NCBI GenBank assembly: GCA_002405445.1
Contig: DHLV01000035.1
Coordinates: 963 to 14,716, forward strand
Direction of reading: 5' to 3'
Length of the DNA stretch: 13,754 nucleotides
DNA from: Flammeovirgaceae bacterium UBA4659
GTDB taxonomy: Bacteria > Bacteroidota > Bacteroidia > Cytophagales > Cyclobacteriaceae
The notes under the pieces are model-generated. The model was given only the letters and a program-made list of their open reading frames with translations. It searched no databases and was not told the origin of the DNA. The position numbers and the translations under genes are program-made. This document shows, one piece after another, positions 431 to 11,874 of this stretch (positions within the stretch are counted from its first letter, which is position 1; each line of letters starts with the position of its first letter).

Positions 431-451
431 GTGATTGAAAGAAAATAAATG
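405..451 (+). repeat. Direct repeat duplicating the murD start region
   Basis: The 12-mer AGAAAATAAATG occurs at 405-416 and again at 440-451, 35 bp later, and both are followed by a near-identical NGC. The downstream copy carries the real murD start codon. The upstream copy presents a decoy ATG at 414 that opens a six-codon frame (MGFSPW, stop at 432-434) running through the second REP-like palindrome. Either a tandem duplication or a short insertion with a target duplication would give this pattern. Confidence 0.5.
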
Positions 452-1804
452 AGCAAGAGGGTAGTCATATTAGGAGGAGGAGAAAGTGGAACAGGTGCAG
501 CGCTTTTAGCGAAAGCTAAAGGATATGACGTATTCGTGTCTGACCAAGGGACGCTTAAGGAAAAGTACAAAGGTGAGCTGCTTAGGGAGAGTATCGACTT
601 TGAAGAAGGGACGCATAGTTTTGATAAAGTCTTAAATGCTTCGTTGATAATAAAGAGTCCTGGTATTCCTGAAAAGTCAGAAGTAGTAAAAAAAGCAAAA
701 GCCGCTGGGATCGAGATTATCGATGAGATTGAATTTGCGTATCGTTTTTTGAGTGGTAGAATTATCGCCATCACAGGTACAAATGGCAAGACCACTACTA
801 CGCTGTTGACTTATCATTTATTGAAATCCGCTGGAGTCAACGTTGCTTTAGCCGGGAACGTAGGTGAAAGCTTGGCGCGGAAAGTGGCCTTTGGTAATTA
901 CGATTGGTACGTGATTGAAATCAGCAGTTTTCAATTAGATGGCACCATCACGTTCCGTCCAGATATTGGGATTCTTCTCAATATCACACCAGACCACCTC
1001 GACCGCTACGATTATAAGATGGAGAATTACATCCATTCGAAATTCAGGTTGGTAAAGAATATGTTGGCGTCCAATCACTTCATCTTTTATTCAGATGACC
1101 CTGTAACAGGCGCAGAGGCTAAGATGAGAAAGATTGCTCCAAGTCTGTTACAAGTGTCTTTAAAGGATACGAAAACGCCTGCTCATTACGATGGAGTAAA
1201 AATGAATTTTAATGTTGCCGGGAAATCGTTTGGTGTATTACAGGCAGATACAACATTAAAGGGGCCACACAACTTGATTAACACACTATCGGCTGTCTCA
1301 GCTGCTGTGCTGGCAGGCATAAGCGAACAGGCAATTCGTGAAGGGTTGAAGACATTCAGGAACGCGCCTCACCGATTGGAGTCGGTGGCTGTGATTAATG
1401 GAGTGGAGTTTGTGAACGACTCAAAAGCGACCAATGTAGATTCGGTGGTCTATGGATTGGGCAGCTACAAAGGCCCGTTGGTTTGGATCGCTGGTGGGAT
1501 CGATAAAGGCAATGATTATAAAATGATTGAAGACCAGGTACGCGACAAAGTACGCGTGTTGATTTGCCTGGGCAAGGACAATGAGAAATTAAAAAAAGCT
1601 TTTACAGGAGTTGTGCCAGAAATCTACGAAACACAAAGTGTAAAGGAACTAGCGCAACTTGCTCTCAAAGTTTCAAGAAGAGGAGATGTGGTGTTGTTGT
1701 CTCCCGCGTGTGCAAGTTTTGACTTGTTCAAGAACTACGAGGACAGGGGAACACAGTTTAGGGAAGCGGTACTGGAACTTAAGGAGACAGTAGTTAGAAT
1801 ATAG
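449..1804 (+). CDS. murD: UDP-N-acetylmuramoyl-L-alanine--D-glutamate ligase
   Basis: MurD adds D-glutamate to UDP-MurNAc-L-Ala in the cytoplasm at the cost of ATP. The 451 residues match the usual family length. A Gly-rich N-terminal UDP-binding fold (VVILGGGESGTGAA, residues 5-19) is followed by the Mur-ligase P-loop GTNGKTT at 110-116, NITPDHLDRY at 178-187, the lysine in HSKFRL (Lys198) that aligns with the carbamylated lysine of the family, HRLE at 308-311, NDSKATN at 323-329, and the C-terminal LLSPACASFDLFKNYEDRG at 416-434. The ATG at 449 is chosen because the Gly-rich motif follows at once and an in-frame extension has no conserved residues. The stop TAG (1802-1804) overlaps the left end of an inserted element; without that insertion the gene would end in TGA overlapping the ftsW start and encode the same last residues. 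Confidence 0.97.
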   Translation: MSKRVVILGGGESGTGAALLAKAKGYDVFVSDQGTLKEKYKGELLRESIDFEEGTHSFDKVLNASLIIKSPGIPEKSEVVKKAKAAGIEIIDEIEFAYRFLSGRIIAITGTNGKTTTTLLTYHLLKSAGVNVALAGNVGESLARKVAFGNYDWYVIEISSFQLDGTITFRPDIGILLNITPDHLDRYDYKMENYIHSKFRLVKNMLASNHFIFYSDDPVTGAEAKMRKIAPSLLQVSLKDTKTPAHYDGVKMNFNVAGKSFGVLQADTTLKGPHNLINTLSAVSAAVLAGISEQAIREGLKTFRNAPHRLESVAVINGVEFVNDSKATNVDSVVYGLGSYKGPLVWIAGGIDKGNDYKMIEDQVRDKVRVLICLGKDNEKLKKAFTGVVPEIYETQSVKELAQLALKVSRRGDVVLLSPACASFDLFKNYEDRGTQFREAVLELKETVVRI

Positions 1805-1823
1805 AATTTAGGAGACTAGGACT
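1803..1823 (+). repeat. Left heptamer array of the insertion element
   Basis: Read in steps of seven from 1803 the bases are AGAATTT, AGGAGAC, TAGGACT. The first is the exact reverse complement of the last heptamer of the right array (AAATTCT, 2226-2232). The second matches the complement of AACTCCT (AGGAGTT) at five of seven positions. AGAATTT also differs at only one base from the adjoining target repeat AGAATAT. Confidence 0.6.
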
Positions 1824-1834
1824 TTAAAAGGATC

Positions 1835-2206
1835 ATGGAGAAAAGAGAACCTGCTAAGTCGTTTAAGGAACTGATTGTATGGCAAAAAGCACATCAATTG
1901 GTACTTAATGTCTACCGAGCAACAAAAACTTTTCCGAAGGAAGAGATATATGGTTTGAGTTCGCAAATAAAAAGGTCATCTGTTTCGATTGCAGCAAATA
2001 TTGCAGAAGGATTTAAGAAGAAAGGAATCGCGGATAAACTAAAGTTTATGAATACTGCACAGGGCTCTTTGTCTGAAACAGAATATCATTTGTTGTTGGC
2101 TAATGATTTGGAATATTTTAACACAACTAAACTAACTAAAGACGCAGCAGAAGTAGGGAGATTATTGGAGGCTTATATGAGAGGTATTCGAGGTAACAAC
2201 TCCTAA
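1835..2206 (+). CDS. Four helix bundle protein, 23S rRNA intervening-sequence (S23/IVS) family
   Basis: A 123-residue, mostly helical, basic protein with the hallmarks of the IVS/S23 four-helix-bundle family: FKELIVWQKAHQLVLNVYR (residues 10-28), FPKEEIYGLSSQIKRSSVSI (33-52), AANIAEGFKKKG (53-64), and a C-terminal helix around LLEAYMRGIRG. Members were first found inside intervening sequences of 23S rRNA genes in other bacteria, and the Avd accessory protein of diversity-generating retroelements has the same fold; their oligomers are thought to bind nucleic acid. The function here is unknown. The gene has no role in wall synthesis that I can see and appears to be a passenger or mobility factor of an element inserted between murD and ftsW. 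Its last residues and stop (NNS, TAA) are encoded by the element's heptamer repeats. The ATG at 1835 is the only start upstream of the conserved region that keeps full length. Confidence 0.93.
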   Translation: MEKREPAKSFKELIVWQKAHQLVLNVYRATKTFPKEEIYGLSSQIKRSSVSIAANIAEGFKKKGIADKLKFMNTAQGSLSETEYHLLLANDLEYFNTTKLTKDAAEVGRLLEAYMRGIRGNNS

Positions 2207-2232
2207 CTCCTATATCCTAACTCCTAAATTCT
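2198..2232 (+). repeat. Right heptamer array of the insertion element
   Basis: Five consecutive 7-bp units: AACTCCT, AACTCCT, ATATCCT, AACTCCT, AAATTCT. The array is the inverted counterpart of the repeats at 1803-1823. It covers the end of the four-helix-bundle gene (stop at 2204-2206) and ends nine bases before the ftsW ATG. In RNA it could pair with the left array and bring the ends of the element together. Confidence 0.8.
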
Positions 2233-2241
2233 TTTAAGAAT

Positions 2242-3426
2242 ATGAAACTAAGTGTTGTTAAGACGTGGGCTGACAAAAACTTGCAAGGTGACAGAGTCAT
2301 TTGGGCAGTGGTTTTTGCGTTGTCGCTCATTAGTATTTTAGTAGTGTATTCTTCTATTGGTACACTCGCTTATAAACGGTCAAGTAGCACTGAATCGTAT
2401 TTGTTGAAACACACTTTTATGGTGATGCTCGGGTTGGGTGCGATGTGGTTCGCTCATAAAATTGACTATCGCTATTACTCAAAAATTTCTCGCTTAGCAT
2501 TATGGGTCAGTGTACCCTTGCTGCTCTATACGTTTAAGTTTGGAACTACATTGAATGATGCCGCGCGGTGGATTACCCTGCCGATTATCAATACATCATT
2601 TCAGCCCTCTGACTTTGCAAGTTTGGCTTTAATTATCAATCTGGCGAGTATGCTTTCAAAGAAGCAACAGAATATAGATGACATCAAAGATACCCTTATA
2701 CCAATTCTTATTTGGTGCGGTGTTATCTGCGCTTTGATTGGATTGACCAACGTATCGACAGCTGTTTTACTTTTCGCGACATGTATGCTGATAATGTTTA
2801 TCGGAAGGGTTTCTGTAAAGTATCTAGCGATGCTTGTCCTGGTCGGAGTGCTTGCAGGTGCTGCTGCTATTCATTTTGGAAATAGATGGGAAACGGTAAA
2901 GAAGCGGTGGGACGCTTTTGTTACAAGTAATTATTCTTTTCAAGCAACTCACGGTTTTATTGCCATTGCTACTGGAGAAGTTTTTGGCAAAGGCCCTGGC
3001 AACAGCGAACAACGCAACATCCTCCCTCATCCGTATTCTGATTTTGTGTATGCGATTGTAATCGAAGAATATGGAATGATTGGTGGCGTTGTGGTTTTGA
3101 TTTTGTATTTGATTTTGCTTCACCGTGGCATGAAGGCAGCATATAATAGTGAGCGTGCTTTTGGCGGGCTGCTCTCTGCCGGGTTAAGTTTTGATTTAGT
3201 CTGCCAAGCGATGGTGAATATGGGCGTGGTGGTGGGGCTTGGCCCCATCACCGGCCAACCATTGCCTTTGATAAGTATGGGTGGAACGGCCATGGTGTTT
3301 ACAGGCCTCTCTGTTGGAATTATTTTGAGCGTGAGCAGAGGAGAACAGGAAGAGAACTGGGGACAAGCAGCCGCCTCAAAAGAGTTGACTGCCGAAGAGA
3401 AAGATTTAGATGCTAAAGCAGCTTGA
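2242..3426 (+). CDS. ftsW: FtsW, SEDS-family septal peptidoglycan glycosyltransferase
   Basis: FtsW is the polytopic SEDS protein that polymerises lipid II at the septum with a class B penicillin-binding protein. The 394 residues hold about ten hydrophobic segments, starting at about 19-39 and ending at about 347-364, with a charged cytoplasmic tail (EEKDLDAKAA). Family landmarks are NDAARWITLP (105-114), QPSDFASLAL (121-130), LPHPYSDFVYAIVIEEYG (261-278), whose Asp267 aligns with the putative catalytic Asp of SEDS enzymes, and GLGPITGQPLPLISMGGTA (332-350), the FtsW/RodA/SpoVE signature. Position inside the dcw cluster favours FtsW over RodA. The start lies nine bases after a heptamer array; before the insertion upstream, it probably overlapped the murD stop. 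The TGA stop overlaps the murG start by four bases. Confidence 0.95.
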   Translation: MKLSVVKTWADKNLQGDRVIWAVVFALSLISILVVYSSIGTLAYKRSSSTESYLLKHTFMVMLGLGAMWFAHKIDYRYYSKISRLALWVSVPLLLYTFKFGTTLNDAARWITLPIINTSFQPSDFASLALIINLASMLSKKQQNIDDIKDTLIPILIWCGVICALIGLTNVSTAVLLFATCMLIMFIGRVSVKYLAMLVLVGVLAGAAAIHFGNRWETVKKRWDAFVTSNYSFQATHGFIAIATGEVFGKGPGNSEQRNILPHPYSDFVYAIVIEEYGMIGGVVVLILYLILLHRGMKAAYNSERAFGGLLSAGLSFDLVCQAMVNMGVVVGLGPITGQPLPLISMGGTAMVFTGLSVGIILSVSRGEQEENWGQAAASKELTAEEKDLDAKAA

Positions 3427-8250: not shown

Positions 8251-9885
8251 ATGTTTGAGCCAGTAACAGGATATAAGTTTGACATACCGAAACATCACAA
8301 GTCGATCATCAAGGTGATTGGCGTAGGCGGTGGCGGTAGCAACGCAGTGAACCACATGTACAAACAAGGCATCAAAGATGTTGAGTTTGTGGTGGCGAAC
8401 ACAGATTTGCAGGCACTGAACAGCAGCCCCGTTCCGTACAAACTCCAATTGGGCGTAACGCTCACCGAAGGTTTGGGCTGCGGAGCAAATCCGGAAGTTG
8501 GCAGAGCGGCTGCGCTTGAAAGCAAAGAACAAATCCGCGAAATGCTGACCGGCACCAAAATGGTTTTCGTAACCGCAGGAATGGGTGGCGGCACCGGCAC
8601 GGGTGCAGCACCCGTGATTGCAAAAATTGCAAAAGATATGGACATCCTCACTGTAGGGATTGTGACGGTGCCATTTTCATTTGAGGGGAAGAAAAAACTC
8701 GCCCAAGCGCAAGCCGGTATTGAAGCATTCCGTGCGGGATGTGATACCGTGTTAGTGATTTTGAACGACAAGTTGCGTGAGATTTATGGTAATTTGTCTA
8801 TCGGGCAGGCCTTTGGCGAAGCTGACAATGTGCTGACCACGGCAGCCAAGGGCATTGCAGAGATCATTACCCTAGCGGGATATGTAAATGTTGATTTTCA
8901 AGACGTGCGCACGGTGATGCTAAACGCGGGCGCTGCCGTGATGGGAACAGCCGAAACACGTGGTGACACACGTGCAATGAAAGCGGCACAGCAGGCTTTG
9001 GCGTCTCCGCTGTTAGATAATCATGACATCATGGGTTCGAAGAAGATACTTCTATCGATCATTTCGGGAGAGGAGGCGGAGTTACAAATGGATGAACTCA
9101 CCACAATCACCGAGTATATTCAGGAACAAGCAGGCAATGATGCTGAAGTGATATTCGGCCACGGAGTAGACGCTGCGCTGGGCGACCGTATTCGCGTGAC
9201 AGTTATTGCCACAGGCTTTGTGTCCGAAAAGAAATCATACAAGAAAGAAGAGAAGAAGGTCCATGAACTTGACCGAACCCAGATCTCGTTGTTTGACGCG
9301 CCTGCCGATAATTCGGTAAATCAGCGCGTGGGAGATCTGGAGCTCAAGCTCAAATCACAAGAAACAGAAGAGGCCAAATCAATTCAAACACCAAAAGAGC
9401 AATTGCCACCGGTTCTTCCAGTCAAGGGCAGTAATCCGATTTTGGAAAGAGATGAAGATGAACTGCAGTCAGACCAGGCGATGACAGAGCGATCTTATGT
9501 TTTTGATATGCTCGGAGAAAACAAATCTGCAGAAGAACGTGGCGAAGAGGGATTGTTTGGAGACGATGATGACGATTTTAAATTGGGTAATGAGATATCT
9601 GCTGACCAAGTGATTGACGAGGAGGGACTGATGCACGTGCGCAAGACAAAAGAAAGGCTTGAGCATCAGGCAAAGGAGCGCAGAGAGAAATTGAAAGCAA
9701 GTCGTAAACAAGAAATGACAAAAGAGGAGTTCAATGAAAAGTGGACGTTACCCGCTTATTTACGCAGAGGCGTAAAGATGGACAATGTACCACATTCATC
9801 AGAACCGTTTATCTCGCGCTACAATTTGAATGACGATAACAACTTGTTGGGCAATAATAAATTTTTGCATGACAACGTAGATTGA
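8251..9885 (+). CDS. ftsZ: FtsZ, tubulin-like division GTPase
   Basis: FtsZ polymerises into the Z-ring. The GTPase core spans about residues 15-325: IGVGGGGSNAVNHM (23-36), the tubulin signature GGGTGTGAAP (112-121), PFSFEGKKK (141-149), and the T7 loop NVDFQD (213-218), whose acidic residues complete the GTP site of the next subunit. A long, highly charged linker (about 326-498) includes an acidic GDDDDDF (437-443) and a KR-rich helical stretch (about 463-495). The FtsA-binding C-terminal peptide LPAYLRRGV is at 500-508, but the protein then continues for 36 residues to end in NNKFLHDNVD. At 544 residues it is far longer than the roughly 380 of enteric FtsZ, mainly from the linker and this tail. 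It is the last gene of the dcw cluster here; the stop adjoins an inverted repeat array. Confidence 0.98.
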   Translation: MFEPVTGYKFDIPKHHKSIIKVIGVGGGGSNAVNHMYKQGIKDVEFVVANTDLQALNSSPVPYKLQLGVTLTEGLGCGANPEVGRAAALESKEQIREMLTGTKMVFVTAGMGGGTGTGAAPVIAKIAKDMDILTVGIVTVPFSFEGKKKLAQAQAGIEAFRAGCDTVLVILNDKLREIYGNLSIGQAFGEADNVLTTAAKGIAEIITLAGYVNVDFQDVRTVMLNAGAAVMGTAETRGDTRAMKAAQQALASPLLDNHDIMGSKKILLSIISGEEAELQMDELTTITEYIQEQAGNDAEVIFGHGVDAALGDRIRVTVIATGFVSEKKSYKKEEKKVHELDRTQISLFDAPADNSVNQRVGDLELKLKSQETEEAKSIQTPKEQLPPVLPVKGSNPILERDEDELQSDQAMTERSYVFDMLGENKSAEERGEEGLFGDDDDDFKLGNEISADQVIDEEGLMHVRKTKERLEHQAKERREKLKASRKQEMTKEEFNEKWTLPAYLRRGVKMDNVPHSSEPFISRYNLNDDNNLLGNNKFLHDNVD

Positions 9886-9968
9886 TTCAAGATTACAAAT
9901 TTCAGATTCAAGATGTATTGCGAACGAGCAATGTGAAATGTTGAATCTGTAGTCTTGAATATTGAAGA
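9884..9968. repeat. Inverted 7-bp-periodic repeat array without a gene
   Basis: From 9884 the bases read in sevens as GATTCAA, GATTACA, AATTTCA, GATTCAA, GATGTAT. From 9941 they read as TTGAATC, TGTAGTC, TTGAATA, TTGAAGA, the inverted counterpart. They form a long interrupted stem: 9885-9896 with 9949-9960 (one G-T wobble), CAGATTCAA 9903-9911 with TTGAATCTG 9941-9949, and an inner hairpin ATTGC/GCAAT (9917-9921 with 9928-9932). The array overlaps the ftsZ stop codon by two bases, so it forms the start of the ftsZ 3' untranslated region. The design matches the flanks of the four-helix-bundle element at 1803-2236, with different heptamers and no gene. Confidence 0.65.
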
Positions 9969-10125
9969 TATGGCACATCCGGCATGACTGGTTTTTACTC
10001 CATTCGTAGTGGTTGTTGGTGGTAAATATTTTTTGCCGGTGCCGGAGTGCCTTCTTAAGACCAGACTTTTGGAATTGCTGTTTTGATTTTTTGCAGCGTT
10101 CTGGTCTGCTAGTTTTTTCGGATAG
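9969..10125. other. Gene-free structured region, candidate small RNA or ftsZ 3' UTR
   Basis: No convincing gene lies between ftsZ and base 10203. Within it, GGCACaTCCGGCA (9972-9984) pairs with TGCCGGAGTGCC (10040-10051), 12 pairs with one bulged A. Inside this arm TTTAC (9994-9998) can pair with GTAAA (10022-10026) and CCA (10000-10002) with TGG (10017-10019), giving a long hairpin with a central bubble. A second hairpin pairs AGACCAGA (10058-10065) with TCTGGTCT (10100-10107), with GCTG/CAGC inside. TGCCGG is repeated in tandem at 10034-10045, so the first stem has an alternative partner. A terminator follows. A bubble-containing hairpin recalls 6S-type RNAs, but I cannot assign a family; an ftsZ 3' UTR or a leader of the next gene is equally possible. 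Confidence 0.35.
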
Positions 10126-10202: not shown

Positions 10203-11825
10203 ATGAACAAGAAGCTACTTTATATCACTTTTCCTTTGATCGTTTTGGCTGGAGCTTATTTCTTAGGTCCGGCCCCCGCTAAACCGAAATGGGATTTGAC
10301 AATGCCAATGGTACCGCAAGAAGCGCTTGCCCTTGAAAATTATGTGGCGACACAAGAAAGTAAGCACAAGCTAAAGCGCGATAATGAAGCGCGCATTGTG
10401 TGGGCGGACAGTTCCAAAAAGAAAACGGAGTACAGTGTGGTGTATTTGCACGGGTTCTCTGCAAGCCAAGAGGAGGGCGACCCGGTTCATAAAAATTTTG
10501 CAAAAAAGTTTAACTGCAATCTTTATCTCGCTCGTCTGGCTGACCATGGCGTAGATACTACCGAACAGCTTCTGTATTTTACACCCGATCGTTGGTGGCA
10601 AAGCAGTAAAGAGGCACTTGCCATTGGCAAAGCGCTGGGCGATAAAGTGATCTTAATGAGCACCTCTACCGGAGGAACAATGTCATTAATTCTAGCATCT
10701 GAATATCCTCAAGATGTTTTTGCGTTGATAAACATGTCACCCAACGTACAGATTTTCCATCCGCTTGCTTGGTTGTCCAATAACCCGTGGGGTTTACAAT
10801 TGGCACGGCAGGTGGTGGGTGGACATTACAATGTCTCGAAGCCGATTGCTGGTGTGGATATGAAATTGCAGAATCAATATTGGAATAACAAGTATAGGCT
10901 TGAGGCTGTAAGCCAAATGCAGGAAATGCTCGAAGACAAAATGAATGAAAATACATTTAAGAAAATCAAAGCGCCTTCACTGTCGCTGTATTATTTTAAA
11001 AGTGAGGCTGAACAAGACTCAACAGTAAAAGTGAGTGCTATTTTGAAAATGAACGAACAATTGGGCACACCCGATTCCTTGAAGGCAGCGGTGGCCATAC
11101 CCGAAGCGGGCACGCATGTGATTGGCTCCTACATTCGCTCCAAAGATGTTTTTTCTGTGGAGCGAGCGGCTGAAAATTTCGCGGTAGAGAAATTGGGAAT
11201 GAAAATTAATTACGGTCTCAAGCCAACAAAAATTGAAGCTTATAAGGCGAGTTTGAAAACCAATCCCGAAAATGAATTGGTTGATTTGGAAAAAGCAATA
11301 CCGGGAATCGTGTTAGATGTTCGCTACGCTACCACAGATAATTTCACCAAAGAAAAAATCTACAACCGGCCCAAGGCATACGCGCGCAAACCGGTGGCCA
11401 TAGCGTTGAAAAAAGCGCAAGAGGAATTTAACAAGCTTGGTTATGGTATAAAAGTCTATGATGGCTATCGCCCTTACTCTGCCACCGTCAGGTTTTATGA
11501 GGTGATGAAAGGCGATACCATGTATGTAGCTAGCCCGTATAAAGGCTCAAAACATAATAGAGGCTGTGCATTGGACCTGACCATAGTGGATTTGAAAACA
11601 AAAGAAGAATTGAAAATGCCCACCGAATGGGATACCGCCTCAAAAGAAAGTTGGGCAGATGCACCCGTCAGCGACCCAATCGTTGCCAAGAATAGAAATA
11701 CGCTTATTTCCATTATGGAGAATAATGGTTTTAAGGTGTACACTGCCGAGTGGTGGCATTTTGATTTCGTGGGCTGGCAGAAGTATGATGTGATGGATAT
11801 TGAGTTTGAGGAGTTGGGGAAGTGA
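10203..11825 (+). CDS. Secreted alpha/beta hydrolase fused to VanX-like D-Ala-D-Ala dipeptidase
   Basis: One 540-codon frame holds two enzyme domains. Residues 4-22 are a hydrophobic signal or anchor without a lipobox cysteine, so the protein should act in the periplasm. Residues about 45-325 form an alpha/beta hydrolase: oxyanion region YLHGFSAS (81-88), nucleophile elbow STSTGGT (153-159, Ser155), a candidate Asp272, and His305 in EAGTHVIG. Residues about 358-540 are a zinc dipeptidase of peptidase family M15D: DVRYATTDNF (372-381), YDGYRP with the essential Arg at 423, SKHNRGCALD (449-458, zinc ligands His451 and Asp458), and EWWHF (516-520, catalytic Glu516 and ligand His519). VanX-type enzymes cleave free D-Ala-D-Ala. 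The hydrolase substrate is unknown. No stop or repeat separates the domains, so the fusion looks real. The gene has its own unit after a terminator. Confidence 0.9.
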   Translation: MNKKLLYITFPLIVLAGAYFLGPAPAKPKWDLTMPMVPQEALALENYVATQESKHKLKRDNEARIVWADSSKKKTEYSVVYLHGFSASQEEGDPVHKNFAKKFNCNLYLARLADHGVDTTEQLLYFTPDRWWQSSKEALAIGKALGDKVILMSTSTGGTMSLILASEYPQDVFALINMSPNVQIFHPLAWLSNNPWGLQLARQVVGGHYNVSKPIAGVDMKLQNQYWNNKYRLEAVSQMQEMLEDKMNENTFKKIKAPSLSLYYFKSEAEQDSTVKVSAILKMNEQLGTPDSLKAAVAIPEAGTHVIGSYIRSKDVFSVERAAENFAVEKLGMKINYGLKPTKIEAYKASLKTNPENELVDLEKAIPGIVLDVRYATTDNFTKEKIYNRPKAYARKPVAIALKKAQEEFNKLGYGIKVYDGYRPYSATVRFYEVMKGDTMYVASPYKGSKHNRGCALDLTIVDLKTKEELKMPTEWDTASKESWADAPVSDPIVAKNRNTLISIMENNGFKVYTAEWWHFDFVGWQKYDVMDIEFEELGK

Positions 11826-11827
11826 TA

Positions 11828-11874
11828 CTGGATCCTAGCACCTGGCATCAAGTATCCAGTGTCGTAAACAGGTT
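11828..11874. repeat. Short 7-bp-periodic insertion between the dipeptidase and MazG genes
   Basis: Heptamers CTGGATC, CTAGCAC, CTGGCAT (11828-11848) are followed by inverted-type units AGTATCC, AGTGTCG (11851-11864). ACTGGAT (11827-11833) pairs with ATCCAGT (11854-11860). The segment is flanked by GTGATA at 11822-11827 and 11875-11880. Removing it with one copy puts the MazG-like ATG one base after the upstream TGA stop. This matches, in miniature and without a gene, the element between murD and ftsW. The 6-bp direct repeat alone could be chance. Confidence 0.5.

Follow-up and report, generated by a model that had tools for sequence, protein, structure and literature searches.

The intervening sequences (IVSs) of 23S rRNA genes and the heptameric repeats of intergenic DNA are the described systems closest to the element considered here, and statements drawn from the cited papers refer to the excerpts available of them. 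The Coxiella IVS is a 428-nt element with inverted ends that is cut by RNase III (PMC4990558). Heptamers of the GGGNATC type occur in intergenic DNA of Xanthomonas and Nostoc, where they are generally not found with mobile elements (PMC4692102), and TAACTGA heptamers occur in Beggiatoaceae, Cyanobacteria and Bacteroidetes (PMC4679880). In two Flavobacterium columnare strains a four-helix-bundle gene lies between the genes for guanylate kinase and nicotinate-mononucleotide adenylyltransferase, among phage elements (PMC5524665). IVP genes, which encode the four-helix-bundle protein of IVSs, and heptamer repeats are not linked in the titles, abstract openings and excerpts surveyed in the open-access literature, subscription papers and preprints being outside this scope. 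The present analysis concerns a segment between murD and ftsW in 13,754 nucleotides of contig DHLV01000035.1 of Flammeovirgaceae bacterium UBA4659 (this whole stretch is the window), in which an IVP gene stands between two arrays of a 7-bp unit inverted relative to each other. The segment is very probably a mobile element, and it may well be a copy of a widespread class of small mobile elements in which an IVP gene lies between mutually inverted arrays of 7 or 8 bp. The evidence that IVP genes and heptamer arrays make up a single mobile system is good for the association and moderate for the mechanism.

The IVP element between murD and ftsW

The gap between murD and ftsW measures 437 bp and holds a single IVP gene, as judged from the window sequence, the list of open reading frames (ORFs) and profile searches. 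The features of the locus are as follows.

449..1804, + strand: murD, the upstream host gene (ORF; TIGR01087, 389.6 bits against a cut-off of 211.95)
1796..1824, + strand: left arm, a degenerate heptamer array (read from the sequence; arm alignment)
1796..1802, + strand: left copy of AGAATAT, one mismatch from the array unit and thus non-diagnostic of a target duplication
1835..2206, + strand: IVP (four-helix-bundle) gene of 123 aa (PF05635, 1.8e-36; TIGR02436, 1.3e-34)
2198..2232, + strand: right arm, the heptamer array AACTCCTAACTCCTATATCCTAACTCCTAAATTCT (lag-7 array score 16), its unit close to the reverse complement of the left unit
2237..2243, + strand: right copy of AGAATAT, likewise one mismatch from the array unit and non-diagnostic
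2242..3426, + strand: ftsW, the downstream host gene (ORF; PF01098, 238 bits against a cut-off of 26.4)

The IVP gene scores 125 bits against PF05635 (cut-off 33.8) and 118.7 bits against TIGR02436 (cut-off 24), and the structurally solved relatives of its protein include 2gsc and 2rld. A first-pass annotation of the window had placed AGAATAT at 1796-1802 and 2237-2243 around inverted repeats and a gene of this family; the two copies are read directly from the sequence and the profile match bears out the gene. The inverted repeats are also present, but instead of one simple pair they consist of a 7-bp unit in degenerate tandem arrays, of a kind common to the IVP family. The left unit is about AGAATTT/TTAGGAG and the right unit is its reverse complement, with AGAATTTAGGAG (1803-1814) standing opposite its inverted counterpart CTCCTAAATTCT (2221-2232). 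Local alignment of the left arm with the reverse complement of its own right arm scores 16, against at most 13 with the right arms of the other 38 loci of the genus. The left array is now overlapped by the murD stop codon, and the present gene ends ...Val-Val-Arg-Ile-TAG. No transposase lies between the arms, where the IVP gene is the sole ORF of at least 60 aa, as had been noted from the letters. The window gave no Rfam match at the gathering score, and the element is flanked by murD and ftsW, outside a 23S rRNA gene.

Heptamer arrays beside IVP genes

The anatomy of the window copy recurs throughout its own genome. That genome holds ten PF05635 copies, and all ten adjoin an array of period 7 or 8 with a score of at least 10, the period being 7 in eight copies and 8 in two (L007, L010). 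The units vary from copy to copy, examples being GATTACA, AACTTCT, ACCGATT and AAAGTGG. Within the genus, 55 of 58 genomes contain a PF05635 match above the cut-off.

For a broader comparison 132 loci were gathered (39 from the genus, 80 from named genomes, 2 from viral contigs and 11 from plasmids), and removal of 7 with short flanks left 125 for the full accounting. For the named genomes, the 80 best of 547 relatives of a single query (L075 type) were taken, and these loci belong mostly to one subfamily because they were picked by similarity to that query. Four loci (L001, which has an internal N, L042, L153 and L172) were left out of the control, unit, wobble, orientation and period sets and are put back in the accounting of 125; the omission of L042 favoured the reading offered here, because this locus has no visible array. 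Near-copies of L072 and L070 (L073, L089 and L092) were also omitted from the sets.

The flanks of IVP genes show autocorrelation peaks at lags 7, 14, 21 and 28. An array score of at least 10 is reached at lag 7 in 99 of the 125 loci and at lag 7 or 8 in 105, while each of the lags 4-6 and 9-12 gives such a score in only 1 to 6 loci. By source, lag 7 or 8 arrays were found at 28/39 genus loci, 66/73 named-genome loci and 11/11 plasmid loci. In control DNA taken from within neighbouring genes arrays occur in 6% of 119 cases, and beside ordinary genes of the same-genus genome G056 at 35 of 320. According to record titles the array-bearing loci span over a dozen phyla, among them Bacteroidota, Cyanobacteria, Chloroflexota, Planctomycetes, Poribacteria, Deltaproteobacteria, Nitrospirota, Acidobacteria, Ignavibacteria, Verrucomicrobia, Patescibacteria, Fibrobacter, SAR324, Balneolia-type and other groups, and the plasmid loci include Pseudomonadota and Gemmatimonadota. 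Two IVP loci lie on viral contigs, and a tblastn search for IVP in 50,697 phage records gave zero matches.

Full and empty sites

Plasmid relatives give direct comparisons of occupied and unoccupied sites. In Trichormus variabilis plasmid C and a Scytonema plasmid, an IVP element lies between two genes of a VirB-like operon; the site is empty in four plasmids of 97.0-97.4% identity, and a fifth (L085, 90.4% identity) retains an array plus a fragment of the IVP gene. When 50 kb were compared with Nostoc carneum, the sole arrays with a score of at least 14 were those of the Trichormus element. In Nostoc plasmids, two adjacent junctions of one operon hold IVP elements with different proteins and units, occupied in different plasmids and each with empty counterparts. 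Comparison with plasmids of 91-93% identity places one element (L071) inside the 3' end of the gene upstream of it. Together with the 14 of 20 same-genus murD-ftsW junctions that lack the gene, these sites support the proposal, made from the window alone, of insertion into a tight operon junction.

Occupied junctions are of varied kinds. IVP elements are found in CRISPR-Cas operons at cas10/cmr3 and cas6/cas4 junctions (L074, L075). One genome of the genus (G018, L200) has three IVP genes within 7.5 kb at three junctions, all of different subfamilies and each with its own unit, and another junction that recurs in the genus, recognised by eye, holds different IVP subfamilies and units in different species. 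As a separate observation, the second of the CRISPR sites (cas6/cas4) carries a gene-less array of a different unit in a related plasmid (L177). Copies on the Calothrix NIES-22 plasmids were considered as transposition evidence and rejected, both lying in the same gene block by annotation; in these plasmids (L178, L179) a gene of the phage integrase family is directly followed by the IVP gene.

The murD-ftsW junction in relatives

Of 25 same-genus genomes surveyed, including that of the window, 20 have a readable murD-ftsW junction, and an IVP gene is present at 6 of these (G000, G001, G005, G007, G010 and G011) and absent from 14. In other families of the order none of 8 readable junctions holds an IVP gene, an absence in distant relatives that agrees with the insertion first proposed; one of these 8 junctions (G026) has a gene-less heptamer hairpin. 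In the same-genus genome G018, the junction has a short gene-less stretch of the window element's unit. At least three changes between presence and absence are needed on the tree built from murD plus ftsW of 19 genomes, and the sister pairs G001/G002 and G005/G003 differ. These changes fit a gain plus losses, or repeated gains, and on the sequences compared the murD-ftsW copy is read as an old insertion with losses or else as a repeated insertion. By eye, joining 1802 to 2244 would give murD the end ...Val-Val-Arg-Ile-TGA with an ATGA overlap, as the first-pass annotation had stated. Its further claim, that an ancestral overlap is thereby restored, fares poorly: ATGA was seen in just 3 of the 14 uninterrupted junctions of the genus, the remainder having gaps or overlaps from -17 to 34 bp. 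In four occupied genomes (G005, G007, G010 and G011; loci L018, L012, L013 and L014) murD is 6 to 10 residues longer than in the window, and the extra tail in G005 is visibly built of the heptamer.

The alternative that survives best, although an unlikely one, is that an old insertion has been kept as a host gene, a domesticated operon regulator whose arrays are sites controlling the processing or translation of the murD-ftsW message. For the G010/G011 orthologues at the junction, the only close pair since silent sites are saturated in nearly all others, the ratio of nonsynonymous to synonymous rates (dN/dS) is 0.053 in the IVP gene, as against 0.082 in murD, which indicates a protein maintained by purifying selection; this value, the recurrence of the gene at one junction in 6 of 20 genomes and its sense orientation all accord with domestication. 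Against it, the element is dispensable in the 14 same-genus genomes that lack it, differences within sister pairs included, and the other recurrent junction is held by different subfamilies and units in different species.

Array units, IVP proteins and gene-less elements

The two arms of an element resemble each other in inverted rather than direct orientation. Across 59 loci with two arrays, the similarity of the left profile is 0.697 to the reverse complement of the right, 0.469 to the right in direct orientation and 0.498 to the right arms of other loci, and inverted similarity exceeds direct similarity in 50 of the 59. The more alike two IVP proteins are, the more alike are their units (107 loci; Mantel r 0.428; 0 of 2000 permutations, which ignore relatedness). 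Between differently labelled groups only, unit similarity is 0.436 at 25-35% protein identity and 0.575 at 55-65%, the labels having been assigned from record titles, with 'genus' and 'Bacteroidota', and 'plasmid' and 'Cyano', counted apart despite whole or partial overlap in phylum. By eye, most groups of the L075-like subfamily have a unit close to NNTYAGC, Poribacteria and L119 being among the exceptions, and the unit TTAGGAG of the window's subfamily resembles the TCAGGAG of Nostoc proteins that are 60% identical.

Array period also tends to follow IVP subfamily. In a set of 140 loci that holds at least two places twice (L041 within L200; L062 as L207), the best lag is 7 in 100, 14 in 17, 8 in 10 and another value in 3, with none in 10. 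Period 8 is characteristic of the L007/L202/L211 type and a few others; the Gemmatirosa arms (L079), tried as heptamers, are actually octamers.

Elements without the gene have comparable ends. In Nostoc N6 an IVP gene is itself interrupted by a gene-less element of 181 bp, whose heptamer ends are of the TCAGRA type found in IVP elements. Matches to this sequence stand at 98 places in 43 plasmid records, of which 28 have a place of at least 80% coverage; some of the partial matches are the ends of IVP elements, and the copies in L071 and L087 have other surroundings. At one plasmid site, L087:449-631 and L092:450-570 are gene-less elements with a common left end and different interiors, as if exchanged. 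A 400-kb portion of the complete genome G056 contains 20 lag-7 arrays with a score of at least 14, none with an IVP motif within 700 bp, and the whole genome has 11 IVP copies; among 42 arrays with a score of at least 10, an inverted partner lies within 250 bp in 11, against 1 of 42 in the control.

It is improbable, on this evidence, that the arrays arise from replication slippage and hairpin copying at gene junctions with IVP genes as mere passengers. Such an origin would suit the abundance of gene-less arrays, far commoner in G056 than IVP genes, and a 14-bp gap that separates the left arrays of the otherwise closely similar L072 and L073. Slippage alone leaves unexplained why the unit, and partly the period, tracks the protein across groups, and why gene-less copies with a common interior are dispersed.

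The window contains gene-less arrays of its own, away from the murD-ftsW gap.

9884..9969, no strand assigned: gene-less heptamer arrays at the end of ftsZ (lag-7 scores 10 and 12; GATTNNA-like unit)
11824..11863, no strand assigned: gene-less heptamer array, its halves inverted, at another gene junction (lag-7 score 11)

The unit at 9884-9969 resembles that of an IVP element elsewhere in the same genome (L005), and these arrays are perhaps a relic or gene-less relative of an IVP element. The gap between mraY and murD (313-448) contains other short palindromes (GCGGCCTTTAGGCCG, GGGCTTTAGCCC) that by eye are unlike the heptamer arrays.

Target repeats

The AGAATAT copies had been taken in the first-pass annotation as a 7-bp target duplication, a claim that is doubtful. 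AGAATAT differs by a single letter from the array unit AGAATTT and occurs 6 times in the window against 1.98 expected (3 of 200 shuffles reach 6), and for these reasons cannot confidently be called a target duplication. Heptamer arrays common to the family can explain a direct repeat without any duplication. A model in which the element always duplicates 7 bp and is moved by an unseen transposase is accordingly very improbable. The presence of AGAATAT on both sides speaks for it, as does the Trichormus pair: the sequences flanking the element share 8 bp of the empty plasmid, and these 8 bp are found to the left (with one mismatch) and to the right of the element. In the same 50 kb, two TnpB elements and a group II intron overlap by 0, 1 and 0 bp. 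The six full and empty comparisons argue otherwise, since repeat length varies among them: it is 8 bp (one mismatch) in one, about 3-5 bp in two and no more than 1 bp at the site of the 181-bp insertion in Nostoc N6, and it is undefinable in two. At a seventh place (L087 against L086 and L088) the target is altered and a duplication undefinable. The idea of a never-mobile ancestral operon gene, lost in most lineages, can be set aside almost entirely: the six junction IVP proteins do look like one subfamily by eye, but all 8 readable junctions outside the genus lack the gene, and the full and empty plasmid pairs and the dispersed gene-less copies, which show that relatives move, contradict it for the family.

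Possible mechanism and significance

If the window segment is a mobile element, the IVP protein would bind the units of its own element, as suggested by the way the unit tracks the protein across groups, and this binding would allow the element, and gene-less versions in trans, to be mobilised. Transcription of the IVP gene would come from the host operon (no search for a promoter was made), and RNase III may cut the paired arms, as it does in 23S IVSs, which would make the insert tolerable. Recognition of its own unit by the protein is, from sequence comparison, somewhat favoured; a role for the protein as mobility factor is conceivable, with the balance slightly against it, and excision of the insert at the RNA level is more doubtful still. 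Orientation bears on the use of a host transcript. Among 114 loci with both called neighbours (by a simple ORF rule) within 500 bp, both neighbours lie on the IVP strand in 94 and on the opposite strand in 9, and they differ in strand in 11. The choice of strand, 94 to 9, stands out and fits an element dependent on the host transcript.

Several observations weigh against this reading. Twenty of the 125 loci have no strong array, and across 13 genomes IVP number is not clearly related to array density (rho 0.37, p 0.21). Neighbours are co-directional at 103 of the 114 loci, compared with 48 of 58 other neighbouring gene pairs of the same loci, an enrichment little above background and unconvincing by itself. 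Target duplications are inconstant, and neither a transposase nor a reverse transcriptase is a constant neighbour in the annotated plasmid loci examined. The correlation of unit and protein, the best hint that the protein recognises the unit, may stem from common descent of whole elements. Mismatches between arms show no preference for G.U over C.A (77 against 63 in 71 loci, p 0.27), and the arms of the window copy can pair in a predicted fold with a z of only -1.68, 6 of 100 shuffles being as good; RNA pairing is thus without support beyond the similarity of the units.

The function of the IVP/S23 four-helix bundle and the origin of heptameric intergenic repeats may be one problem. Unit specificity is directly testable by binding, since nature supplies many protein-unit pairs, and if the protein does drive movement the result would be a mobility mechanism without a recognisable transposase. 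For annotation, the working rule would be to regard an IVP gene found in an operon as a probable insertion and not as part of the operon's own function.

Comparison with known systems

The 23S IVS with an S23p/IVP ORF is like the window element in protein family, in size (428 nt against about 430 bp) and in its inverted arms, the available excerpts of that account making no mention of heptamers in the arms (PMC4990558). It differs in sitting in an rRNA helix, whereas the window copy sits between protein genes. The Rfam LSU model matches the full length of one locus of the present collection (L078), an Azospirillum 23S rRNA gene that contains an IVP gene between heptamer arms; this single IVS, the one examined, is therefore built like the operon copies. 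The operon inserts and the 23S IVSs probably belong to the same class.

The heptamers described from intergenic DNA, with which the short tandemly repeated repetitive (STRR) sequences of cyanobacteria are grouped, are like IVP arms in being degenerate 7-bp tandem repeats that are largely intergenic (PMC4692102, PMC4679880). Those of Xanthomonas, as IVP arms do, often form inverted pairs and lie preferably between aligned ORFs (PMC4692102). In the excerpts available these accounts propose regulation or quadruplexes and name no IVP gene (PMC4692102, PMC4679880). The P6b stem of the Nostoc trnL intron is also made of a 7-nt repeat (TDNGATT, NNTGAGT) and varies in length by steps of one motif, but it lies within a group I intron (PMC4476775). 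Avd of diversity-generating retroelements is a related four-helix-bundle protein for which homology has been suggested (PMC10053308). In profile searches that covered three ORFs, the window IVP protein scored 29.5 bits against DivGenRetAVD, below the cut-off of 80.

Miniature inverted-repeat transposable elements (MITEs) and the systems of repetitive extragenic palindromes and their associated transposases (REP/RAYT) comprise short gene-less elements whose ends are inverted and which are scattered through intergenic DNA. A broader proposal, tentative and rather less likely than not, is that IVP proteins could be repeat-specific mobility factors of a transposase-free class, with 23S IVSs as one niche and the heptamers of Nostoc, Xanthomonas, Beggiatoaceae and Bacteroidetes as its ends and relics; each subfamily would then recognise its own 7- or 8-bp unit and mobilise gene-less copies in trans, across bacterial phyla. 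The 181-bp Nostoc element looks like a MITE. In contrast to MITEs and REP/RAYT systems, its partner with matching ends carries an IVP gene and not a transposase, and IVP elements end in repeat arrays with a unit that differs between families.

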